Positions 19,225 through 55,845 of a DNA stretch of 64,000 bases are shown here, piece after piece (positions within the stretch are counted from its first letter, which is position 1; each line of letters begins with the position of its first letter). The stretch covers positions 2,973,052 to 3,037,051 of the forward strand of contig NZ_BAFN01000001.1 of NCBI RefSeq assembly GCF_000949635.1, in the 5' to 3' direction. Under the pieces are notes generated by a model. It did not search any database and was not told the DNA's origin. It saw nothing but the letters and a program-made list of their open reading frames with translations. The DNA comes from Candidatus Brocadia sinica JPN1 (lineage in GTDB: Bacteria; Planctomycetota; Brocadiia; Brocadiales; Brocadiaceae). The position numbers and the translations under genes were made by a program.

Positions 19225-19269
19225 TAAATTGATTGTAAGGAATTTTCATTTTATTTACGCGAGTTATGT

Positions 19270-19369: not shown

Positions 19370-22300
19370 ATGAAAAGGCAATCTGAAAGGTTAGCCGGAT
19401 TGCCGGAGGTAATGGCAATTCGGTTCTTTTCTACGTATTTCAAATTGTTTCTTTTTCTGTGGCTCTTCTATTGTTGCAATGCAACGTCGGCAGCCGATTT
19501 GAACGATCCGGCCTTGAGTGATCCGTTTCCTCTTGACCAGTTGTATCAGCGCGCAACTAGGACGGGTGAACGGTTGCAGGCAGTATACGACAGGGTGCAG
19601 GAACGGCTGTCGGAAGTGAAACAGGAAAAGGATCGGCTCGTCGCTTTATATGAGCGGCTTCGGATCGATGCATCCGAGCTTGAAGCTGATTTGGATTTCC
19701 GACCAGACCCCTCAATCTCGGTTCGGTTTTTACCGCTTAAGCCTCCATCTGAACTTGAACCGGCCGTTATCATTCCACCCGATCTAATTCACACCACTGG
19801 ATTTTCCCGTTTAGTACAATCCTATCGAAACGCAACAGATGCATCGAAGAGCGCCCGGTGGCGTTCGTCTTTTACCCAAACCGCTGGCATTCAGGCATGG
19901 GAGATGCTCCTTCGGGCACCGGAGGTGATCTACCGCTACGAAATTGCTCTGGCAAAAGCCCGCGCTGCGATCATTGCCTACAGAAATTATTTGGAAAAAT
20001 GGCAATTGGCCAAGGCATACATGTTCGATGCTATGGAAATTACGCGTCGCTTTCCGGACGATGAGGAGATGGTAAAGGAACGTCGGGTCTTGATTCATGG
20101 CCTTCGGGGAAGATATGCCGGCGAGGAACGGCGCATAGACCTTCGTGATTATGCTGAATGGCAGGATACGGTACTGACCATGGAGAGCAAACGAGACCCG
20201 ATAATCGATGAAATAGATGCAACAGTCGAAACACTTGCAGAGCATTATCCATGGATATCCACTCAAGGGGAGTTGGACGATACTGAAGCGTCTGGCGCGC
20301 CCCTTACTCCCGAACGTCCTCGCTCTGCGAGACTGCCTGGTCTGCCAGCCTCCCCGTTAATGTCTGCCAACCTTGCACCTCTCGGTTTCCGTCAGCTCAA
20401 CGACGCCCTTTACGCGGCGCGTAAATTTCGTGCTCTTTTGCAAAAACCCGTCTGGGAAACCATGGCGTTATACAATGTTGACGTCAGGCTTTCGGAACTA
20501 CACTTCAGGGAACTTCCCGGGACAGGCGATCCCGCATTCTTCCGGCCCGAAGGACTTGTTCCGCGGTTTCGCGGTGAACCGGTCAAACATCATGGTGTCG
20601 TCAGTACGTTTCTTCGACTCGAGACATTCAGGGATACGAGGATATCCATATCTGACCCCACTGATGTGGTGTGCGGCGTTGTCAACCATATGCCTGAACC
20701 AATGCCTGAGGAAGAGGACGAAACAAGAACGACAGGTGCCGGAGGATTACCGGATCCCACGCAACTTCGTGAGCGAGCAGAGACAGCATTACGCTTGGTG
20801 ACCGGTCGAATCGAAATACATGAGGAAGACCTCGAAAGATCGTTACAACTGGAACAGCGTCTTCGCGATACTTATGAAAGTTACGCGGAACAAGCCCGGC
20901 TCATGCAAAATGAGCTGCAACAGATACCTGACCTTGCAATATACGCACCATTTCCCCCGACTTTCGAACGAAAACGGGTCGGTTCTGAAATCCTCGGCTC
21001 CATCCCATTCGACCTGTATAACCTGTCGATGCTTGAACAACGACGGCAGCTGGTCGTCGACATGTTTCAAGCGTTGACAAAAACATTTGATCATTTGCAG
21101 AATCCCGGGTATTCGGCCGATGCCCTCGAACGGGCGAGCCGATGGTCCGCAAGGCAGGCTCTTGGTTTCCTTCATGCTGCTCCTGTTCTCTTGATTGATA
21201 ATCACCTGCTGATGACACAAAGGCTGCTGGAGGACTTCTATTATGGGGATTACCTGGAAAAGTGGAATCTGCACCGCGAGTTTATCCAGAAAGCTCGCGC
21301 GCTGCACTTGCAACAAACCGCAGGAAGAGGAGAAACTGACCTGAACGAGCGCGAACAGCTCCGCAATGAGTACAGGGGAAAGGAAAGACTGTTACACAAT
21401 AAGAATCATCAGGCCTGGGAAGAACTTGTCACTGCACGCACAACGACCTTGAATGAGTTGTTCAGGGAAGTGGAACAATTGCTGCGGGGCATACCGGAAA
21501 AATTATGGGATGGCCGGCCGTGGCTCTACGAATTGCCCGTGGCGAATCAGAATTGGCCGGGAAGCCGGGACTTCAAAATCATAAAGGACCGGTTCGGTGA
21601 GCTCAAATCACACTGGATCAATATTACCTCGCTACATTTGTATTTGTTTTTCAGACATCCTGCCGATTTTGGGGATTTGGCATTAAAATCTCAAACACTG
21701 GCATTCACACTCCCGGCATTCGAAGAGAGTGAGCGCGAACCCGGTGGAGGTCTCCCGTCCCCTTTTCCCTCCCCTGCACCAGGGGAGGCACCGAGGGCAC
21801 CATTTGTTATAATCCCCCGGGATGCATCGAAGCCGGAAGGACCCAGGATTGTTGTTCTTCCCAGGACTAGGGAACCTTTCGGGAAAGTCTCCGGGTATCA
21901 GGAGGCCCCGATAAATGCACCCTTTGCCGGCATTGGCGTACATTTAGCAGATGGTTCCTTTGTACACCGGACATCGGACATAACGCTTCGTTCCTGGGAT
22001 GATGTGGACTTCGATTTTGTTCGATCCTACCGGAGCAATATCACGTATGAAGGTGTGATGGGTCCGAATTGGGACTTCAACTACAATCAGCGCCTCGTAC
22101 CGGTGGGAGGAGAACGCATCCCCATCAAGGATGCACCTTTGACTTATGGCGAAGAGTTTCCCCGTAGTGACAGAACAGGGCGGGGTAGTGATCTCCAGTT
22201 TTTCGACGGTGACGGACGTCTCTTTCTGTATACTTTCAAAAAAGCCGAGTTCAGAAATACGGCAATCTGGGGCGTATGGAAGGGAGATGCTCTCGTATCG

Positions 22301-25300
22301 ACCTATGACGCCCCAGCAGGCCGTTTCGATGAACTGCTTCGGATCGTTATCCTGCCCGACAGGAACCAGAGGTTCTCCACCGACCTGGACAGTTCAATCG
22401 TGCCATCTTCGATTTTCTATGTGCGACGGGAAAAAGACGGAACACGTTATTTTTATAATTGTCATGGTCTTCTGACCCGCATTATCGACCGGACAATGTT
22501 TCGGGAGCTTCAGTTCGGATATGCAGGGCCATTCAATCCCCTCACCCTCACGCAGACGTTGAGTGCTGTCAAACTCGTTCATACGGGAACGGTCATCAAA
22601 TTCGAATATGAGCTGCGTTCCGAAAGAGGCCCTCCACGGTTGCTACGGTTGGTTGCGCGCAGCTATCACGGATTGGAAAAAACCGTTGAATATTCATACA
22701 ATGACGAAGGGCGATTGCACGAAGTGACGCTTCCGGGGAGTACGGAGCAGAATCCAATCGTACTCCGGTATACCTACGGGGACAAAAATCTCCTCACCAC
22801 AATCACGTCGCCCAGGGAAGTGGCGCGGGATGGGATCCATTTTTTGAAGAATGAATACTCCAATGGTCGTGTCTCTTCGCAAACGTGGGGGGTGCCTCCC
22901 GAAGACGGCGGAACGTATATATTCAAGTATGATGGTCTGTCAGTTGAGGTTACGGATCCGGGGAAAAACAGAACGGTTTATACGTTAAAAACGGAGAGTG
23001 GCAATATCGTTACGGAACGAATGACCGAAATGGGAGCGGAGGAGGGTAAATCGTGGTCGACGTCATTCGATTACTACCCCTTTCTCCTCTGGCGCCGCGT
23101 CAATTTTCCAAAGGGCAATGCCGTGGAATATGGACGGGATGCAAAGAACGATTTCATAACACTCGATAGTGAACCTTACAATAAGCTGAACCAGGGTAAT
23201 ATTCGTTCCATTGCACGTATCAGTAAGAGCGGGAATAAACTCGAACAATTTACTTACACCTACGAGCCTTACTTCAATGAAGTGGAGACGGTCACCGATG
23301 GACGCCATTACACGACGACCTACAAATACGAACCGGGCTTCAAGCGTTTCGAGGCGTATCAGAACGGTCGTGCCGTCAAGATCATCTATCCTGATTTGAC
23401 GACCGCCAATGGTACGGTTCACAAAGATATTCATGAGATAATCGAATGGACTCCCTTCGGTCCTCTCAAGATCACCGATGTTGGAAAACACGTAACCAAC
23501 TTTATTTACGCAAGCACACCGGATGGTTTTTTTCCCATTACCAGGCAGCATCCCGATTCGACGACCCGCAACGTGACCTATGACGATTGGTGGAACGAAA
23601 AAACCATCAAGGACGAGCGTGATATCGTTACAAAGTTCGAATACGACGGCCGTGACCGCCCAACTGATCGTTATGATGACGTAAATGGTTTCAATATCCA
23701 CACCTCTTATAAATATGACGAGAATGATAACGTCACACGGGTAGAACACGAGTGGAAAGATACGTTCGACAGCAGTCTGCATCCCGCACTCTCTCGTCTT
23801 CCCGCGCAGCCGAGGAAACATGTTCGCACCTATGATTATTATGTACGGGGCATGCTGAAATCAGAGACGGTGGAGTTGGATGATGCTGCCCTTACAACCA
23901 CTTATTACTATGATGGCTATGGCAACCGGCGAAGAATCGAATCACCCCTCTCCGGAGTCACCCAGCGTTTTTTCAACGAGCGCAATCAACTCTCGCGAAT
24001 CAGCAAAGGCTCCCAGTCGGAAGTGCTGATTACCGAAACGTTTGAATATGATGGCAACGGCAATCTCGAAAAGCACATAGACAACAGGGACAACGCAACC
24101 ACCTACCTCTATGATGATTTCGACCGTTTTCGGGGGATCACCGATGCCGCGGGCAATAAAATCGAGCACCTATTGGATGATTCTAACAACATCAAAAGGA
24201 CGAGATTCTTTGGGCACCCCGGCGGTCCTACTCCCGTTGCAGACAATAACCCACAGATTCTCTTGCGCGATATTGAATTCGAGATCGATGAGCATAACCA
24301 TGTGCACACGCGTCACGATCATGTATTGGAAATCAAAGACGGGGAGAGCGTCAGCAACGGAATACTGGATACCCGCTATATATATGATAAGGAGGGACTT
24401 CTTGACTTCGTTATCGATTCTCACGGGCACAAAACGGACAATGATTATGACAGCCGGCACCGGCTGACAAAAGTTACCGATGCAGCCGGCAATTATACCC
24501 TGCGGATTCTCGATGGGAACGGGAATATCGAAGAACTCCACGAGCATGAGGCTGCACAGGAGGGCGCGGCTGAACCTTCCGGGACATATGTTACCAAGTC
24601 GGAGTACAACAGCTTGAACTACCAAATCGCCGAAACGGATCCGCTGAACCGGACTACCCGGTTCTTCTGGGACAGTCTCGGCAACCTGCGGGCGCAGGTA
24701 AGAAAGAGTGGAGTTCCGGATGGCTTCGCGACTCTCTATAGCTGGGATGCATTACACCGGAAGAAGGAGAAGCGGACAGAATGGGTGCGCCATAAGAAAG
24801 AGGGCGGGCTGTGGGCGACAAAGTGGGACGATTTGGTAACAACTTATAAGTATGATTTAACGGGCGGCGCCCTTTCGCTCACCATCATGGAGAAACTGCA
24901 AGGCCTGGAAGGTGACAGGAATGATGAAGATTTTAGCAGCACAACCGAGCTGCACTACGATGCAACGGGACGGCATATCAAGACAGTTCGGCCTGACGGA
25001 GCGACATTTGAAGTTATGGAGTATAACGCCGATGGTAATCCTGTGCTCATGAAAGACGCCAATGAGACAAAAGTCACCAACACATACGATGTTCTCAACC
25101 GGTTAGTCAAGCGAACAATTGAACCAGGTGATGGCATCGGGGGTGTTACCGAGGAACACTATGAATATGACGGGTTAGGACGGATGACGGCAGCCGGTGG
25201 TGAAGGATACGTGGGTTTCAGCTACGACTCATTGGGGCGCATATTGAGCGAACAGCAGGCATCGCGGGCGAGAGTCGACGATGAAGATAATGGACGGCTC

Positions 25301-27787
25301 AAACCGGCGGTCGCCTTTCGCGCCGGAAGGCCGCTCACACCCCGTGAACCGAAAGTTGTCACAACGACATACAAAGATACCGACCACCTGACTGTTACAT
25401 ACACCTACCCCACCCTTCAGTTTCAGGTTGAAGAACAGTATGATCCGCTGGAACGTGTCAGTTCCACCGTCCTTCGCTCCAAAAATGAGGAGAAAGGCCG
25501 GGTAGCGTATCGTTACATTGGGAAGAACCGTGTAAGCATCCGGACCTATAGCAACGACACGAAGACCCATTATTTTTATGATGATGATCGCCTGTTGCAG
25601 GGTATCGCCCATTTCGGCCCCCAGGGGAGAAAACTTCCCCGGCAATTAGAGCCGCCCTTGAGTCCCGAAGAAATGAAAGCCGTCTGGGACGATGTTCGCG
25701 TTCTCCTTCGTAGCGAAGACCCCCTCTTTGCAACAAGTGAACCGCTTCTTGCAGCCTATTTCACGTTACGCGACAAAGAAGGAAATATCTATCTTCACGA
25801 TCACATCCATCCGCTCCCCCAGACTCAGCCCAATACGGATCATTGGCGCCAGGAAAGAAGAATCTTTGCTTATGATAGTTTCAACCAGATTCAGTCACAA
25901 AAACATTTCATCTCCCTGTACCGGAGAGAACGTGCCGGAGGCTCTCCCCTTTCAGAAACCTCGGCTCAATATCACCAATACCGTGAGACCGGGGCACGAA
26001 TGATCACGGACATCGTCGAGAATTACGATCCACCGACAGGTCTCGAAGGAAATGTCAAGCGGCGGGAACTCACCATCGGGCGTACGGCTATCGGCAACGT
26101 TGTCCGCTACAATCCCATAAAGGTGGATCGGCTTGACAAACTGACGGATCTGATTCCACCGACGGAAAATCTGATTTCTGAATCTTTCGGGTACGAATTC
26201 GACAAAACTGGCAACATGATCAGGGATAAGATGAACAACATCGAATATCATTATGATTACCGAGGGCGGCTGGTTTCGGCGCGTTCCGTGGATGACGGCA
26301 CGAGTGTACGGTACCAGTATGACCCCTTTGACCGGCTGATATTACGGGACGTCGAGCTTGGCCCTGAAAGCGATCCCCAAACAATCGTGACATGGTTTAT
26401 TTACAATGGTGAGGCGTGCATCGAGGAGTTCCCCTTTGGTCCTGAAGTGACACCGCTTAACAGGGGCCGCACCAGCTATGTATGGGGCGGCAGCCCCGGC
26501 GAGCTTGTATGGATGAGCCGTGTACTGGATGTTTCAGCAGATACCGAGTCGGCGGTGAGAAATTATTTTGTACACGAAGATTTCAACGGCTCTGCGCAAT
26601 TTTTCTCGACTCTCCGTTTGGTAGAGAAAGCCGGCATGCTTGAAATTCATGATTGGCGTTGGAAACGGCGTGCCCCTAGTATCGGAAAGGAAACGTTTCT
26701 GCCGCTACCGGCGCTTGGTACGCGTTACGAAGCCTATTTCGAAGGGAATCTCCTCGGAGGCCGCCCCCTGTTTGATTTTGAGAAACCCATCAACTTCTCG
26801 TCCCGACACATGGAAGAGTTCAGGGCCGAGCTCACCCGGCGGCGATGGGAAATGGATTCATGGGTACTGTCCCGCATACTCACACCTTTCGGTGGCCCTG
26901 TTGCAGCCGGTATAGAAGGGCTGGGCTGGGTCGCCAGGCTGGGGCTCATAGCAACCGGTAACACCTCTCCCCAGTGGGACAGGAGGTTGGAAAATGCGCT
27001 CTTCATTGCTGATGTACTTGCTTCCTTCGGTTCTCTGGCACTTGCAGGCCCGGATAAATGGACCCGCATGGCTGGAGAGGTGGGAGGCAGCCCGGAGATG
27101 TGGCTCAGGGCGAGGCGGTTGGCCCGATGGGCACAGATCAAACCTCATCTCCCCTTAATTGGTGCCAGGATTTCAGCTGGTCGGACTGCCATCACTCCTG
27201 GGGGTGCCCTGCAGATTGACGCCAACGCAGCACGGCTCCGCGTTATTCAAGCTGCAAGTGAAGGTTCGAATCTGGCAGACGACCCATTCCTGGACAACAA
27301 TATATTGGTCTGGATTTACGAAAAACAAGCCGGTGCGCTGAAGTTCGCCCAGAAATATCATGGCTTGATGAGCATCGACTTGACCGTTGCGAGCGAATTC
27401 GTCGCGGGCGGGCGCTCTCTGCGAGCACTTGGAGAATTGATGAGGGAACATGACATTCGATTGCTTGAGGCAGCCACAGACGCCGAGGCGACAATTGTGA
27501 TGAAGGGGATAGGGAGAACCAGTCTCTCAAACGATATCCGAATCATTGCAACCGCCAGAAAGCATGGAGTACACCTGGCTTCGGGAGACAGGAATCTCAT
27601 TGCCGGAGCGGTTCGTGCAAGCCTGGAAAGCGTTGCATTCGGGAGCAATATCGAAGTACGGGCGTTCCGTTTTGTCGATCCTGCCATTCCCTTTTACAAG
27701 CGTGTCATATCAACATTACGCGCACAAGGAATCAGCACACCCCGTGATTACATCGGACCACTGACAGATTTTCCGCGGGCTCCCTGA
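19370..27787 (+). CDS. Giant RHS/YD-repeat protein with a C-terminal PIN-like nuclease domain (putative polymorphic toxin)
   Basis: A 2805-residue protein. The frame opens at 19229, but the ATG at 19370 has GAGAGGAGGG and starts a signal-type N-terminus (hydrophobic 24-40, then CCNATSAAD). Residues 45-840 are helical with a coiled-coil start. A DUF6531-like segment (FAGIGVHLADGSFVHRTSDI) begins near 847, and YD/RHS repeats fill about 1000-2400. The usual DPxGL cleavage motif at the core end is not evident. The last 170 residues look like a PIN RNase: D2642 in FLDNNILVWIY, E2676, D2722 in SNDIRIIATAR, D2740 in ASGDRNL. RHS shells deliver such tips to rival cells. The gene looks more GC-rich than its neighbours, suggesting transfer. 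Ten bases later a candidate immunity gene begins. Confidence 0.85.
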   Translation: MKRQSERLAGLPEVMAIRFFSTYFKLFLFLWLFYCCNATSAADLNDPALSDPFPLDQLYQRATRTGERLQAVYDRVQERLSEVKQEKDRLVALYERLRIDASELEADLDFRPDPSISVRFLPLKPPSELEPAVIIPPDLIHTTGFSRLVQSYRNATDASKSARWRSSFTQTAGIQAWEMLLRAPEVIYRYEIALAKARAAIIAYRNYLEKWQLAKAYMFDAMEITRRFPDDEEMVKERRVLIHGLRGRYAGEERRIDLRDYAEWQDTVLTMESKRDPIIDEIDATVETLAEHYPWISTQGELDDTEASGAPLTPERPRSARLPGLPASPLMSANLAPLGFRQLNDALYAARKFRALLQKPVWETMALYNVDVRLSELHFRELPGTGDPAFFRPEGLVPRFRGEPVKHHGVVSTFLRLETFRDTRISISDPTDVVCGVVNHMPEPMPEEEDETRTTGAGGLPDPTQLRERAETALRLVTGRIEIHEEDLERSLQLEQRLRDTYESYAEQARLMQNELQQIPDLAIYAPFPPTFERKRVGSEILGSIPFDLYNLSMLEQRRQLVVDMFQALTKTFDHLQNPGYSADALERASRWSARQALGFLHAAPVLLIDNHLLMTQRLLEDFYYGDYLEKWNLHREFIQKARALHLQQTAGRGETDLNEREQLRNEYRGKERLLHNKNHQAWEELVTARTTTLNELFREVEQLLRGIPEKLWDGRPWLYELPVANQNWPGSRDFKIIKDRFGELKSHWINITSLHLYLFFRHPADFGDLALKSQTLAFTLPAFEESEREPGGGLPSPFPSPAPGEAPRAPFVIIPRDASKPEGPRIVVLPRTREPFGKVSGYQEAPINAPFAGIGVHLADGSFVHRTSDITLRSWDDVDFDFVRSYRSNITYEGVMGPNWDFNYNQRLVPVGGERIPIKDAPLTYGEEFPRSDRTGRGSDLQFFDGDGRLFLYTFKKAEFRNTAIWGVWKGDALVSTYDAPAGRFDELLRIVILPDRNQRFSTDLDSSIVPSSIFYVRREKDGTRYFYNCHGLLTRIIDRTMFRELQFGYAGPFNPLTLTQTLSAVKLVHTGTVIKFEYELRSERGPPRLLRLVARSYHGLEKTVEYSYNDEGRLHEVTLPGSTEQNPIVLRYTYGDKNLLTTITSPREVARDGIHFLKNEYSNGRVSSQTWGVPPEDGGTYIFKYDGLSVEVTDPGKNRTVYTLKTESGNIVTERMTEMGAEEGKSWSTSFDYYPFLLWRRVNFPKGNAVEYGRDAKNDFITLDSEPYNKLNQGNIRSIARISKSGNKLEQFTYTYEPYFNEVETVTDGRHYTTTYKYEPGFKRFEAYQNGRAVKIIYPDLTTANGTVHKDIHEIIEWTPFGPLKITDVGKHVTNFIYASTPDGFFPITRQHPDSTTRNVTYDDWWNEKTIKDERDIVTKFEYDGRDRPTDRYDDVNGFNIHTSYKYDENDNVTRVEHEWKDTFDSSLHPALSRLPAQPRKHVRTYDYYVRGMLKSETVELDDAALTTTYYYDGYGNRRRIESPLSGVTQRFFNERNQLSRISKGSQSEVLITETFEYDGNGNLEKHIDNRDNATTYLYDDFDRFRGITDAAGNKIEHLLDDSNNIKRTRFFGHPGGPTPVADNNPQILLRDIEFEIDEHNHVHTRHDHVLEIKDGESVSNGILDTRYIYDKEGLLDFVIDSHGHKTDNDYDSRHRLTKVTDAAGNYTLRILDGNGNIEELHEHEAAQEGAAEPSGTYVTKSEYNSLNYQIAETDPLNRTTRFFWDSLGNLRAQVRKSGVPDGFATLYSWDALHRKKEKRTEWVRHKKEGGLWATKWDDLVTTYKYDLTGGALSLTIMEKLQGLEGDRNDEDFSSTTELHYDATGRHIKTVRPDGATFEVMEYNADGNPVLMKDANETKVTNTYDVLNRLVKRTIEPGDGIGGVTEEHYEYDGLGRMTAAGGEGYVGFSYDSLGRILSEQQASRARVDDEDNGRLKPAVAFRAGRPLTPREPKVVTTTYKDTDHLTVTYTYPTLQFQVEEQYDPLERVSSTVLRSKNEEKGRVAYRYIGKNRVSIRTYSNDTKTHYFYDDDRLLQGIAHFGPQGRKLPRQLEPPLSPEEMKAVWDDVRVLLRSEDPLFATSEPLLAAYFTLRDKEGNIYLHDHIHPLPQTQPNTDHWRQERRIFAYDSFNQIQSQKHFISLYRRERAGGSPLSETSAQYHQYRETGARMITDIVENYDPPTGLEGNVKRRELTIGRTAIGNVVRYNPIKVDRLDKLTDLIPPTENLISESFGYEFDKTGNMIRDKMNNIEYHYDYRGRLVSARSVDDGTSVRYQYDPFDRLILRDVELGPESDPQTIVTWFIYNGEACIEEFPFGPEVTPLNRGRTSYVWGGSPGELVWMSRVLDVSADTESAVRNYFVHEDFNGSAQFFSTLRLVEKAGMLEIHDWRWKRRAPSIGKETFLPLPALGTRYEAYFEGNLLGGRPLFDFEKPINFSSRHMEEFRAELTRRRWEMDSWVLSRILTPFGGPVAAGIEGLGWVARLGLIATGNTSPQWDRRLENALFIADVLASFGSLALAGPDKWTRMAGEVGGSPEMWLRARRLARWAQIKPHLPLIGARISAGRTAITPGGALQIDANAARLRVIQAASEGSNLADDPFLDNNILVWIYEKQAGALKFAQKYHGLMSIDLTVASEFVAGGRSLRALGELMREHDIRLLEAATDAEATIVMKGIGRTSLSNDIRIIATARKHGVHLASGDRNLIAGAVRASLESVAFGSNIEVRAFRFVDPAIPFYKRVISTLRAQGISTPRDYIGPLTDFPRAP

Positions 27788-27797
27788 AGAGGGCGAA

Positions 27798-28196
27798 ATG
27801 AAACCAGAGCGACACATACAAACATTTCTTGAACGATTCGGACCTCATACCCAGGAGTATTCATATTACAAAACCCTTTTAGACATACTGGTTGCTCTGA
27901 ATCCTCCGCGAACCAAAGTGTTTGGCTTTGGCTGTATGATGATGCTCGAATTTACGACTATCCGCTTGCATGATGGACGGGAAATCGGGGGCGACGAGGA
28001 TGTGATGGGCTCTGTTGGTGATATAGCGGAAGCCGTTGCCATTTTGTTCGCATCTATCGAGCGGGATCCACTATGGTGGAAATCGAGATATCCCAGTGAG
28101 CTTTCAGATCCCCAGGTTCAAAAAGCCGCGACCGAGCTCACATCGAAGCTCGATCAGCTGGATATGGTGAAACAGGTGGTGAGCGATTTGGGTTGA
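27798..28196 (+). CDS. Candidate immunity protein for the RHS-PIN toxin
   Basis: A 132-residue soluble protein with no signal peptide or membrane segment, starting 10 bases after the RHS stop with a GAGGG box. It is mildly acidic overall and contains KVFGFGCMMMLEFTTIRLHDGREI and a helical C-terminus. I recognise no family. Position directly after a polymorphic toxin's variable tip, same strand and tight spacing are the classic signs of an immunity gene, so that role is inferred from context alone. Confidence 0.55.
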   Translation: MKPERHIQTFLERFGPHTQEYSYYKTLLDILVALNPPRTKVFGFGCMMMLEFTTIRLHDGREIGGDEDVMGSVGDIAEAVAILFASIERDPLWWKSRYPSELSDPQVQKAATELTSKLDQLDMVKQVVSDLG

Positions 28197-50084: not shown

Positions 50085-51761
50085 ATGAACCATCGGGGTA
50101 TTCCTATGGGTGAACACCCAGCGTTTGTTGATTGGAAGAAAAAGGTCCTTCAAAAAGTTTTGGACCGTACACCAGAACGATTAAAGGAGTTCAAGACTGC
50201 CTCAGGTCTTCCTGTGGAGCGTCTTGTATTACCTGAGACCCTTGATGAAAAATATCTCACGAAAGTTGGTTTCCCCGGCCAGTATCCCTATACCCGGGGG
50301 ATTCAACCCACCATGTACCGCGGACGTCTCTGGACAATGCGGCAATATGCAGGATTTTCCACAGCAGAGGAATCTAACAAAAGGTACCGTTACTTGCTGG
50401 AGCAGGGGACAACCGGGCTTTCCGTGGCCTTTGATTTGCCAACGCAAATTGGATACGATTCCGATCATTTCATGAGCCGGGGCGAGGTCGGTAAGGTAGG
50501 CGTTGCCATTGATACCCTGGCGGACATGGAAGCCCTGTTTACCGGTATCCCCCTGGATAAAGTTTCCACCTCAATGACAATCAATGCCCCGGCCGCGGTG
50601 CTGCTGGCCATGTATGTTGCAGTGGGAGAAAAACAGGGGGTTAATCCCTGTCAATTAACGGGGACAATCCAGAACGACATTCTCAAAGAGTATATTGCCA
50701 GGGGAACGTATATTTTTCCACCCCGGCCGAGTTTGAGGTTAACGACAGATATTTTTGAGTGGTGTAGTAAAGTGGTTCCGCAATTCAATACAATTTCAAT
50801 TTCGGGTTATCACATACGGGAGGCAGGCTCGACCGCAGTCCAGGAGGTTGCCTTTACTCTGGCCGATGGGTGTGCGTATGTGCAGGCAGCGATTCATGCG
50901 GGTCTGGATGTCGATATCTTTGCTCCGCGCCTGGCCTTTTTCTTCAGCACATCCTCAGATCTTTTTGAGGAAGTGGCAAAGTTTCGGGCTGCCCGGCGAC
51001 TTTGGGCAAGATTGATGAAGGAACGTTTCCATACCCAGAAACCCACCAGTCAGATGTTGCGATTTCATGCCCAAACGGCCGGATATACCCTGACGGCACA
51101 GCAAGTTGATAACAATATAGTCCGCGTAACATTACAGGCACTTGCAGCGGTGCTTGGAGGAACGCAGTCTTTGCACACAAACTCCCGTGATGAGGCATTG
51201 GCGCTCCCTACGGAAGATGCAGTTCGTGTTGCTTTACGTACGCAGCAGATTATTGCTCATGAATCCAGTGTCTGCAACACGGTTGATCCCCTTGCCGGTT
51301 CCTATTATGTTGAGGATTTGACTGATCGGGTTGAGCGTGAAGTCTCGACACTGATCGAAGAAATTGATCAGGCAGGAGGAATGATTGCAGCCATCGAGGC
51401 AGGAATAGTTCAGCGCCAGATCGAAGAAGCTGCCTTTCAATACCAACAACAAATTGACAGGGGTGAGCGGACGATTGTGGGGGTCAACTGCTTTCAGGAA
51501 CAGGAAAAAGTTTCCCCTCATGTCTTTCAAGTCAACAGAGCTGTGGAGGAAAACCAGATAAGGAAACTTACGGAAATACGCACAAAACGTGATAACCAGA
51601 AAGTGAAAAAGATACTGGCAAGTTTGGATGAAGCAGCACGGGGAAAGACGAATGTAATGCCCTTCATCATGGAGGCTGTCCGTTGCTACGCATCGATGGG
51701 TGAGATCTGCGACGTCCTGCGCGGGGTGTTTGGTGTGTATGACGGGAGAAGAAGCCTCTAG
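50085..51761 (+). CDS. Methylmalonyl-CoA mutase, catalytic large subunit
   Basis: A 558-residue TIM-barrel radical mutase subunit. [21 protein letters not shown] and [10 protein letters not shown] match the substrate-binding region; the tyrosine in WTMRQY is the residue typical of true methylmalonyl-CoA mutases and differs in 2-hydroxyisobutyryl-CoA mutases. It lacks the C-terminal B12 domain, which is encoded separately upstream. Start at 50085 or the ATG at 50106, which has a slightly better upstream GGGG, cannot be decided. The usual MeaB/ArgK chaperone is not in the window. Confidence 0.93.
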
Positions 51762-51894
51762 TATTGCCCTGTAAAAGCATCTTTTTTAGCAAGTATTTTT
51801 GAACTATTTCTTATGCTTTTGATTGCAGTTTCGCGGCGCCAGAAAATTATAATGAAAAATCTTTTAAAAACGCTTGAGGCAGGGAGCCAATATT

Positions 51895-52308
51895 ATGATT
51901 CAGAAAATTGATCATCTGGGAATTGCTGTTCACTCACTTGATAAAGCAATTGGCTATTATGAGCAGGCACTGGGCCTTGTGTGTAAAGGACGGGAGGAAG
52001 TTCCTTCTCAAAAGGTGCGGATAGCGTTCTTTGCGGTGGGTGAAGTTCGGTTTGAGCTTCTGGAACCTACCTCAGCCGATAGTCCTGTAGCCGGGTTTCT
52101 TGAAAAAAGAGGCGAGGGATTGCACCATGTTGCCTTTGAGACGGATGACATCAGGGCACAATTACAACAGGCCAGCAGGGCAGGTTGTCATCTCCTGAAT
52201 GAGACGCCTGTTGAAGGGGCCGGAGGGAAGCAGGTGGCTTTTCTTCATCCGAAATCAACCCACGGTGTTCTTACAGAATTTTGTTCACAGGGTACCAGAA
52301 AATCGTAA
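51895..52308 (+). CDS. mce: Methylmalonyl-CoA epimerase
   Basis: A 137-residue vicinal-oxygen-chelate protein that interconverts the (R)- and (S)- forms of methylmalonyl-CoA. It begins MIQKIDHLGIAVHSLDKAI, and has GEGLHHVAFET and the metal-ligand His/Glu pattern of the family. GGGAG precedes the ATG at 51895; an upstream TTG is less likely. It sits between mutase and decarboxylase, which use opposite stereoisomers, so the order is biochemically sensible. Confidence 0.93.
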   Translation: MIQKIDHLGIAVHSLDKAIGYYEQALGLVCKGREEVPSQKVRIAFFAVGEVRFELLEPTSADSPVAGFLEKRGEGLHHVAFETDDIRAQLQQASRAGCHLLNETPVEGAGGKQVAFLHPKSTHGVLTEFCSQGTRKS

Positions 52309-52339
52309 AAAACTATATCGTATAAAGTAACGAATTTTT

Positions 52340-53890
52340 ATGACCATTTCACAAAGACTTATCGAAGAACTTGAAAGGCGTCGTGGGGCAATCCTGGATA
52401 GCGGGCGTGATAAAATCAGGGAGCGGCATGAGAGGGGCTTGATGACTGCGCGTGAACGTCTCACGAGCCTTTTTGAAGAAAATACTTTCCAGGAATCGGG
52501 AATGCACGCCCAGCATGCCTGCCGCGACTTTGGTATGGAGAAAAAGGTCTTACCCGGTGACGGGGTAGTAACAGGAACGGGTTACGTCAATGGGAGACCT
52601 GTGGCAGCGTTTAGTCAGGATTTCATGGTAGGAGGCGGAGCGTTGGGAAGGATTCATGCCCGGAAGGTATGTGATCTTATGGAGTATGCGCTGAAGACAG
52701 GAATGCCGCTGGTTGGCTTCAATGATTCAGGAGGTGCGAGAATACAGGAAGGGGTAGATTCGTTGTCAGGGTATGGACAGGTTTTCTACCGGAACGTGAT
52801 GCTCTCAGGCGTTGTTCCGCAGATTGCCGTCATTGCCGGCCCTTGTGCGGGAGGAGCGGCATATTCTCCGGCGTTAATGGATTTTATCATCATGACAAAG
52901 AATAACGCCAATATGTTTATCTGCGGACCGGATGTTATCAGAGCTACTACCGGACAATCTACAACCTTAGATGAAATTGGAAATGCGGTAGTTCACGCCT
53001 CAATCAGCGGGAATATTCATTTTATCGCAGAAGATGACCAACATGCCATTGATCTCGTGAAACAGTTACTTTCATATTTACCATCGAATAATATTTTGGA
53101 CCCGCCACACCGGCCCACTTCTACGATTTCGTTGGCTGAAGACCGGGGTATGAATGAGATTGTTCCCGCAGACAACAGGGAGCCATTGCATGTGCTGGAA
53201 ATTATCAAACGGTTGGTTGATGAAGGACATTTTCTGGAAATACAGAAGGACTGGGCAAAAAATATTGTTATTGGTTTTGCAAGAATCGAAGGGATTGTGG
53301 TGGGACTTGTCGCCAACCAATCTTTTGTCAAAGCGGGAACAATCGATATCGATGCTTCAGATAAAGCAAGTCGTTTTATCCGCATTTGTAATGTCTTTAA
53401 TATCCCTCTGGTAACGTTGGTAGATGTTCCCGGGTTTTTGCCCGGGATTGCCCAGGAACGGGGAGGGATTATCCGTCACGGGGCAAAAATGTTATTTGCC
53501 TATGCTGCGGCTACAGTTCCCAAAATTACCGTAATTCTCAGAAAGGCATACGGAGGTGCCTATTTGGCTATGTGCAGTCGGGATATGGGGGCAGACCTGG
53601 TTTATGCATGGCCAACAGCAGAGATTGCCGTGATGGGGGCGGAAGGCGCAGTCAAAATTATCTACCGCCGTGAGATCGAGGCATCAGAAGACCCGAAGGC
53701 TAGGGAGAAGGAGTTTGTTTCAGAGTACAGGGAGCAGTTTGCTTCGCCTTATCAGGCCGCCGCTCATGCAATGATTACTGACGTAATAGAACCCTCACAT
53801 ACACGCTCTGTGATTGCACTTGCTTTGCGCAAAACGCTTTCAAAACGTGAAACTCGTCCACCGAAAAAACATGGGAATATTCCTCTCTGA
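52340..53890 (+). CDS. mmdA: Carboxyltransferase (alpha) subunit of methylmalonyl-CoA decarboxylase / propionyl-CoA carboxylase beta
   Basis: A 516-residue carboxyltransferase. The acyl-CoA-binding GFNDSGGARIQEGVDSLSGY and the C-terminal-half MCSRDMGADLVYAWPTAEIAVMG are family hallmarks. Together with the OadG-like, biotin-carrier and OadB-like subunits that follow, it forms a membrane decarboxylase rather than an ATP-dependent carboxylase, since no biotin carboxylase gene is present. The stop codon overlaps the start of the next gene (TGATG). Confidence 0.93.
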   Translation: MTISQRLIEELERRRGAILDSGRDKIRERHERGLMTARERLTSLFEENTFQESGMHAQHACRDFGMEKKVLPGDGVVTGTGYVNGRPVAAFSQDFMVGGGALGRIHARKVCDLMEYALKTGMPLVGFNDSGGARIQEGVDSLSGYGQVFYRNVMLSGVVPQIAVIAGPCAGGAAYSPALMDFIIMTKNNANMFICGPDVIRATTGQSTTLDEIGNAVVHASISGNIHFIAEDDQHAIDLVKQLLSYLPSNNILDPPHRPTSTISLAEDRGMNEIVPADNREPLHVLEIIKRLVDEGHFLEIQKDWAKNIVIGFARIEGIVVGLVANQSFVKAGTIDIDASDKASRFIRICNVFNIPLVTLVDVPGFLPGIAQERGGIIRHGAKMLFAYAAATVPKITVILRKAYGGAYLAMCSRDMGADLVYAWPTAEIAVMGAEGAVKIIYRREIEASEDPKAREKEFVSEYREQFASPYQAAAHAMITDVIEPSHTRSVIALALRKTLSKRETRPPKKHGNIPL

Positions 53891-54294
53891 TGATATTTAA
53901 TAAAATGTTGATCTTTGCCAATTTGCCAGCACATCCGTCTTTTTGGGAAAATCTTCGTTTTCAAACAATTGGTTTTGTTCTTGTACTGTTGGTTTTGGGG
54001 TTGATCGCCTTGATACTATATACATTTGGATGTCTCTTCAAAAAAACAGGTGACAGAAAGGCCGTGATTGGTGCTGGTACAACTCCTGAAAAATCATTGA
54101 TATTACCACAGGAAGAAGATACCCATGAACTGCTGGCTGTTATTGCTTCCGCGGTGTATTTAGCGATAGAAAATTCCCATCGGATTGTTTCCATTCGTCC
54201 CGTTGCCGACGGCAAGGTCATTGAAAGTCTCTACCTGCAGGCATGGTCTATTGAAGGAAGACGTCAACATTTTGCATCTCACAAAATCCGTTAA
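53890..54294 (+). CDS. OadG/MmdD-like small membrane subunit of a sodium-pumping decarboxylase
   Basis: A 134-residue protein with one membrane helix (about 27-50) and a short cytoplasmic tail, the shape of OadG/MmdD assembly subunits. Its ATG overlaps the mmdA stop by one base. The tail (ELLAVIASAVYLAIE) is typical of the family. It would anchor the soluble subunits to the beta pump. Confidence 0.75.
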   Translation: MIFNKMLIFANLPAHPSFWENLRFQTIGFVLVLLVLGLIALILYTFGCLFKKTGDRKAVIGAGTTPEKSLILPQEEDTHELLAVIASAVYLAIENSHRIVSIRPVADGKVIESLYLQAWSIEGRRQHFASHKIR

Positions 54295-54323
54295 TTTATA
54301 GAGAGAGAGTAATTACTCAAAAT

Positions 54324-54698
54324 ATGAAAAAGCTTAGAGTGACTGTTGGAGAAAAGGTGTATGAAGTGACCGTTGAAATCCTTGAAGAGAATGGGCTTGG
54401 TACTCCACAACCAGCAAAACAGGTCGCTCCCCCTTCTCCTCAAGAACCATCGGTGCCGGTTACGATTCCTCCTGTGCACATTGTACCGAAAGGAATTACC
54501 AGTCCAATGGCAGGAAGAGTTGTCACCATATCTGTACAAGTGGGGCAAACTGTCAGGGAAGGTGATCCGTTGATGGTTATTGAGGCGATGAAGATGAATA
54601 ATTACATTTATGCCCCTCAGGGCGGTCAAATTTCAACCATTCTTGTAAAAGTTGGAGACGCAGTAGAAGAAGGTCAACAACTGCTAATCTTTTCATAA
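54324..54698 (+). CDS. mmdC: Biotin carrier subunit of the decarboxylase
   Basis: A 124-residue biotinyl-domain protein. The acceptor is K90 in VIEAMKMNN, inside a lipoyl/biotinyl fold (PMAGRVVTISVQVGQTV), preceded by a proline-rich linker (about 30-55). It shuttles CO2 between the carboxyltransferase and the membrane subunit. BirA at 9377-10222 is the likely modifying enzyme. Confidence 0.92.
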   Translation: MKKLRVTVGEKVYEVTVEILEENGLGTPQPAKQVAPPSPQEPSVPVTIPPVHIVPKGITSPMAGRVVTISVQVGQTVREGDPLMVIEAMKMNNYIYAPQGGQISTILVKVGDAVEEGQQLLIFS

Positions 54699-54708
54699 AC
54701 CCACTTTT

Positions 54709-55845
54709 ATGATTCAGGATTTCATCAATTTTCTGCACCTGACGGCATTTCACCTTGTGACGTGGCAAATGATGGTAATGTGGGGTATAGCGCTTGTACT
54801 GCTTTACCTTGCAGTATACAAAGGTTTTGAACCATTGCTGCTTGTGCCGATTGCTTTCGGGGCGCTCATTGCAAATCTGCCAACCCAGGGTATCGTCAAT
54901 CTTCCAGTCCACAATCAGCCTGGAGGTCTTTACTATTACATCTCTAAAGGAATTACCTGGGAGATATTTCCTCCATTAATTTTTCTGGGAGTCGGGGCAC
55001 TGACTGATTTTGGACCATTGGTTGCCAATCCACGTACGTTTCTCTTGGGAGCTGCTGCGCAACTGGGAATATTCGTTACTTTCCTTGGGGCATCCTGTCT
55101 TGGTTTTACTGCAAAGCAGGCGGCATCTATCGGGATTATCGGCGGGGCGGATGGCCCTACGGCGATTTTTATGTGCAATAGGCTTGCACCGGAACTGCTA
55201 GCGCCGATTGCAGTGGCTGCCTATAGTTATATGTCTCTCGTCCCTTTGATTCAACCTCCTATCATGAAATTATTAACTACACGGCATGAAAGAAGAATCA
55301 GAATGAAATCGCTGCGAAAAGTGTCAAAGCTGGAGAAACTCCTTTTTCCTCTGATCATCACCGTTCTTTGTGTGCTGCTCGTCCCTGCATCTTCGGCGTT
55401 GATCTTCATGCTGATGCTGGGAAATTTCCTTCGCGAATGCAGTGTAACGGAACGTCTGGTGAATGCCGCCCAAAACGAGATCATCAATATCGTTACGATT
55501 TTCCTTGGTACCAGTGTTGGTGTAACGATGACGGGCGAACGATTTCTTAATATCGAAACGCTTAAAATTCTGTTTCTGGGTGCCTTTGCTTTTGCAGTTT
55601 CAACGGCAGGCGGGGTTCTCATGGGTAAGGTAATGAATTACCTGAGTCCCCATAATCCCGTTAATCCACTTATTGGTGCAGCGGGAGTTTCTGCAATGCC
55701 TATATCAGCACGTGTTGCCCATCTGGAGGGTCAAAGGGAGGATCCGAATAATTATCTTATTATGCATGCGATGGGGCCAAATGTCGCCGGAGGGATAGGC
55801 GCCGTTGTTGTAGCCGGTTATTATATTGCGAGCTTGAGTAGATGA
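54709..55845 (+). CDS. mmdB: Sodium-pumping decarboxylase beta subunit (OadB/MmdB)
   Basis: A 378-residue membrane protein of about ten helices. GIIGGADGPTAIFM (about residues 142-155) carries the conserved Asp of the sodium site, and the late MHAMGPNVAGGIGAVVVAGY is also a hallmark. Decarboxylation of carboxybiotin here drives sodium export. It is the last gene of a tight cluster, ten bases after the biotin carrier. Confidence 0.95.
   Translation: MIQDFINFLHLTAFHLVTWQMMVMWGIALVLLYLAVYKGFEPLLLVPIAFGALIANLPTQGIVNLPVHNQPGGLYYYISKGITWEIFPPLIFLGVGALTDFGPLVANPRTFLLGAAAQLGIFVTFLGASCLGFTAKQAASIGIIGGADGPTAIFMCNRLAPELLAPIAVAAYSYMSLVPLIQPPIMKLLTTRHERRIRMKSLRKVSKLEKLLFPLIITVLCVLLVPASSALIFMLMLGNFLRECSVTERLVNAAQNEIINIVTIFLGTSVGVTMTGERFLNIETLKILFLGAFAFAVSTAGGVLMGKVMNYLSPHNPVNPLIGAAGVSAMPISARVAHLEGQREDPNNYLIMHAMGPNVAGGIGAVVVAGYYIASLSR

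Follow-up and report, generated by a model that had tools for sequence, protein, structure and literature searches.

A probable PIN-fold tip, exchangeable on its RHS shell, and a candidate immunity gene behind it, in Candidatus Brocadia sinica

What does a giant RHS protein of Candidatus Brocadia sinica JPN1 carry at its C-terminal end, and is the small gene that follows it an antidote? An initial annotation of the window (the whole 64,000-nucleotide stretch of contig NZ_BAFN01000001.1 that was analyzed) had read the end of this protein as a PIN RNase mounted on a delivery shell, and the neighboring gene as the matching immunity gene. In this study, we re-read the locus and compared it with related genomes, sequence profiles and predicted structures. 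Taken as a whole, the locus is likely to encode a Sec-exported RHS shell that would deliver a PIN RNase tip, with the 132-residue protein blocking that tip.

The RHS gene and its shell

The features discussed below are as follows, with positions in the window.

19370..27787, + strand: RHS polymorphic-toxin gene, 2805 aa (ORF; Pfam RHS_repeat and DUF6531; ATG from the DNA alignment with L047)
19415..19495, + strand: candidate Sec-type signal peptide, MAIRFFSTYFKLFLFLWLFYCCNATSA-AD (hydrophobic segment at residue 14; orthologue N-terminus)
19496..21937, + strand: N-terminal region of about 800 aa (about 54-80% identity to the G021 orthologue in 50-residue blocks)
21938..26360, + strand: DUF6531 and YD/RHS-repeat shell (PF20148, PF05593, TIGR01643; 13 YD-type motifs)
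26900..27052, + strand: two hydrophobic segments, residues 2511-2529 and 2543-2561 (hydropathy; kept in the orthologue)
27108..27109, + strand: tip-swap boundary, the end of the DNA match with the orthologous shell (7.77 kb, 77% identity)
27287..27679, + strand: PIN-like nuclease tip, spanning residues 2640-2770 or so and including D2642, E2676, D2722 and D2740 (PF01850; AF2 model and VIA-align range; homologue L036)
27680..27784, + strand: C-terminal tail past the PIN fold, of low model confidence (AF2 model)
27798..28196, + strand: candidate immunity gene, 132 aa (ORF, spacing, ribosome-binding site, codon statistics)

When re-read, the ATG-started frame at 19370-27787 on the forward strand encodes 2805 residues, the length first claimed. 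The ORF listing allows it to be extended upstream to a TTG at 19229. The ATG at 19370 is likely the true start, because a strong ribosome-binding site, GAGAGGAGGG, precedes it and because DNA identity to the orthologous shell of L047, described below, starts exactly there. Across the whole protein, Pfam matched RHS_repeat (PF05593, E=5.5e-28, 8 stretches), DUF6531 (PF20148, E=9.3e-9) and PIN as its sole families, with no match to PAAR. NCBIfam matched YD repeats (TIGR01643, E=1.2e-16), and the 13 YD-type motifs run from residue 979 to residue 2300. The signal peptide candidate was judged by eye, and the N-terminus of the orthologue bears a hydrophobic segment similar in kind. The two hydrophobic segments near the other end lie directly before the swap point and are candidates for a membrane-crossing or pre-toxin part. 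A search of solved structures with the shell and the N-terminal region returned zero relatives.

The RHS protein works like an RHS polymorphic toxin, yet it is not a canonical core-bearing member. It resembles Rhs1, RhsA, Tse5 and WapA (TIGR03696-type) in its YD-repeat shell with a variable C-terminal tip, in the small gene directly after the tip and in the exchange of tips on a conserved shell. In contrast to these toxins, it has a PIN tip, NCBIfam detected no RHS core (TIGR03696) in it or in its L047 orthologue, and its own 2805 residues contain no DPxG sequence. Unlike the PAAR-bearing T6SS RHS effectors, it begins with a candidate Sec-type N-terminus and the region of about 800 residues. 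The initial annotation had correctly seen an RHS shell with a tip but had overlooked the missing core and DPxG motif and the Sec-type N-terminus. In characterized RHS toxins, PxxxxDPxGL is the aspartyl self-cleavage site that frees the toxin (PMC8636562). Since this shell has neither DPxG nor the core, release of the payload must go another way, or not happen, and the locus thereby poses the concrete question of how the tip gets freed.

The GC content of the RHS gene is about 51-55%, compared with 42-47% in its housekeeping neighbors (der, topA and a peptidyl-prolyl isomerase gene). This contrast suggests that the gene was horizontally gained between der and topA. The genome also contains another RHS-like locus (L050, G000:C1:1088000-1100000), which consists of short frames of 564 and about 182 aa and is apparently degraded.

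An exchanged tip with a predicted PIN-like fold

A class-wide search with the N-terminal region of the RHS protein found a single full orthologue, the gene L047 in a genome (G021) of another genus in the same family. The two genes share one unbroken DNA match of 7.77 kb at 77% identity, which covers 19370-27108, that is, from the ATG to about residue 2580. Outside this segment, L047 and the DNA of the window have zero similarity, whether before it, after it or between the tips. The L047 tip (L047:11036-11635) bears HAE and CPEC motifs and matches the OTT_1508 deaminase family, though below the threshold (PF14441, E 0.0088), and on these grounds we regard it as deaminase-like. The same shell carries a different tip beyond residue 2580 or so, as the claim of a variable tip had anticipated. 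The tip is a swappable warhead, as one would expect in a polymorphic toxin.

Re-translation placed the four spaced acids of the tip where they had first been read, at D2642 (FLDNNILVW), E2676 (VASEFVAGG), D2722 (LSNDIRII) and D2740 (ASGDRNL). Their spacing is PIN-like, and in an alignment they fall on acidic columns conserved in the PIN proteins of the same genome. The Pfam PIN profile (PF01850) matched the tip by itself with E = 2.6e-4 (22.0 bits, where the cut-off is 23.6), and in the genome search it matched in frame with 24.7 bits, above the cut-off. The AF2 model of the tip, built on a 2-row alignment, averages a pLDDT of 58 and reaches 70-83 in the core. Many PIN chains were listed when the whole model was searched with Foldseek (best E 4.5e-3, none < 1e-3). 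The top match of the model in VIA-align was VapC21 (Z 10.3, rmsd 2.9 A over 117 residues), and the highest-ranked solved chains were PIN/VapC-type proteins nearly throughout. Modeled alone, the tip is therefore predicted to adopt a PIN-like fold rather than some other one.

One homologue of the tip was found among 392 genomes of the phylum (E 1.4e-13). A genome-contig scan placed it (L036) in the MAG of Planctomycetota bacterium ACE_NR_PLAN1 (JAMLIC010000096.1), where an RHS core (TIGR03696, E 2.5e-12) precedes a tip that shares 35% identity with that of the RHS protein. The L036 tip has its own matches to Pfam PIN (E 2.3e-4) and to the VapC family TIGR00028 (E 0.0032). The PIN assignment thus rests on the Pfam profile, the predicted fold and the independent occurrence of a homologous tip on a different RHS core, and the locus very probably encodes an RHS polymorphic toxin with a PIN-fold tip.

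No relatives of the tip were found in phages, plasmids or viral contigs. Several weaker matches were set aside. L003 and L004, from the same genus, are HsdR-type restriction-enzyme proteins matched by chance; an MreB-like locus with an internal stop (L035), a glycoside-hydrolase-like frame (L038), and L053 and L054 were likewise dismissed as chance matches. L057, from the MAG that also carries L036, is a separate protein of VapC type.

The downstream gene and competing readings

The 132-residue ORF begins ten bases after the RHS stop codon, as originally described, and GAAGAGGG forms a ribosome-binding site before its ATG. Its codon log-likelihood is +18.8, whereas the other five frames all score below zero and 1000 shuffles reach -5.6 at most; the ORF is therefore in all likelihood a genuine gene. 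The initial annotation had recognized no family in its product, and Pfam and NCBIfam match none; PADLOC reported nothing, and plasmids and viral contigs held no relatives. The predicted model is all-helical, at low confidence (pLDDT 60). Among the 392 genomes of the phylum, the gene is present solely in the window genome, and it was not found in any that lacks the tip. Its position, its operon-like distance from the RHS gene, its coding signal and a rarity that matches that of the tip make it moderately likely that the 132-residue protein is the immunity partner of the tip.

It is possible, but rather unlikely, that the tip is a real PIN toxin while the 132-residue protein is unrelated or accessory, protection coming instead from export and encapsulation. 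Such a reading would account for a protein that has neither a family match nor a homologue. It would also fit L047, where no immunity-sized ORF was found directly 3' of the deaminase-tipped shell, so that adjacency is no rule for the shell shared with the RHS gene. However, the ten-base gap, the ribosome-binding site and the strong coding signal are harder to reconcile with a bystander, and the gene occurs just where the tip does. In addition, the other PIN tip is itself adjoined by an Imm5_like gene (L036:9799-10449, PF21805, E 3.9e-10), which is convergent and overlaps the end of the RHS-core-PIN fragment; from its sequence, we regard it as a putative immunity gene. Its product is unrelated to the 132-residue protein by BLASTP. 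L036 therefore resembles the present locus in placing a homologous PIN tip after RHS sequence and differs from it in its canonical core, its truncated shell and the family and orientation of its neighbor.

The tip itself is probably an active RNase toxin, judging from its likeness to PIN proteins. That it has the PIN fold but is inactive, or serves another role such as binding, or that the gene is a decaying relic, appears improbable to us. The fourth acid is displaced in L036 (ASANYD for ASGDRN), and the L036 copy is a truncated RHS fragment with serine recombinase and transposase-like genes upstream; these features, together with the absence of the self-cleavage motif from the shell, would suit a tip that has lost its function. 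On the other hand, the RHS gene is intact across 2805 codons, the first three acids (D, E, D) are kept in two tips that are only 35% identical, and the active-site strand DDPxLDNNILV is nearly invariant between them.

A further reading holds that the shell captured a VapBC cassette, which acts purely inside the cell as a toxin-antitoxin module. The tip does share with VapC/PIN toxins the PIN profile and fold and the acidic metal-site residues, and about 20 PIN/VapC-type loci lie elsewhere in the 4.08-Mb genome that holds the window. VapB is usually encoded upstream of its toxin, whereas the 132-residue gene lies downstream of the tip, and no antitoxin family of Pfam or NCBIfam matches its product. 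Unlike VapC/PIN toxins, moreover, the tip is fused to the end of a 2580-residue shell that is predicted to be exported, and its partner gene is not VapB-like. With a profile of the genome's own PIN proteins, the RHS tip scored 10.4 bits against a maximum of 9.8 in 2000 shuffles, a weak test alone. Because this score barely exceeds the shuffles, the tip has no special closeness to the genome's VapC-type PINs and did not arise by recent copying of a local VapC. Salmonella rhs elements are reported to behave as toxin-antitoxin modules (PMC7043789), and we nevertheless hold a captured cassette to be quite improbable here.

Least probable of all, to a degree that we give it very little credence, is that the tip has another alpha/beta fold with its acids placed by chance: the borderline Pfam scores, the modest AF2 model and a weak similarity to EPSP synthase would allow it, but two divergent homologues match PIN independently, the fold list consists nearly entirely of PIN proteins, and the EPSP-synthase match, which we rejected, is unsupported by that list, misses the DNN strand and is unreported for the L036 homologue.

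We therefore return to the reading of a delivered PIN toxin with its own immunity protein, which would operate as follows. The shell, from residue 1 to roughly residue 2580, would be exported by the Sec route and would enclose and deliver a C-terminal payload. This payload would be exchanged between strains, and in the RHS protein it would be a nuclease with the PIN fold. From its homology to VapC and further PIN proteins, the tip should bind Mg2+/Mn2+ through D2642, E2676, D2722 and D2740. Inside a recipient it would presumably cut RNA and so stop translation. In the producer and its kin, the 132-residue protein would most likely bind and block the tip.

PIN nucleases among polymorphic toxins

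The survey of Zhang et al. (2012) found PIN domains to be apparently unused in polymorphic toxins (PMC3482391), in agreement with the earlier remark that PIN is unusual as an RHS tip. No later report of a PIN-tipped polymorphic toxin was found in the open-access literature, and one elsewhere is possible. On the strength of the survey and of this later literature, the tip represents a new type on a known RHS delivery system. The RHS-PIN locus and its planctomycete homologue L036 supply the link that was missing in 2012. A bolder proposal is that PIN nucleases are a genuine, unrecorded class of polymorphic-toxin tip, with at least two independent immunity solutions (the 132-residue family and the Imm5-like one), here on an RHS lineage that has no self-cleavage core and needs another way of releasing its payload. 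We judge the chances of this proposal to be evenly balanced. The tip and the 132-residue gene form a candidate toxin-antidote pair that can be tested directly.

Elsewhere in the window, at 50085-55845, genes for methylmalonyl-CoA mutase, a carboxyltransferase and a Na+-decarboxylase beta subunit stand in a row and adjoin a DASS symporter gene. Their arrangement resembles a cluster for a sodium-pumping methylmalonyl-CoA decarboxylase.
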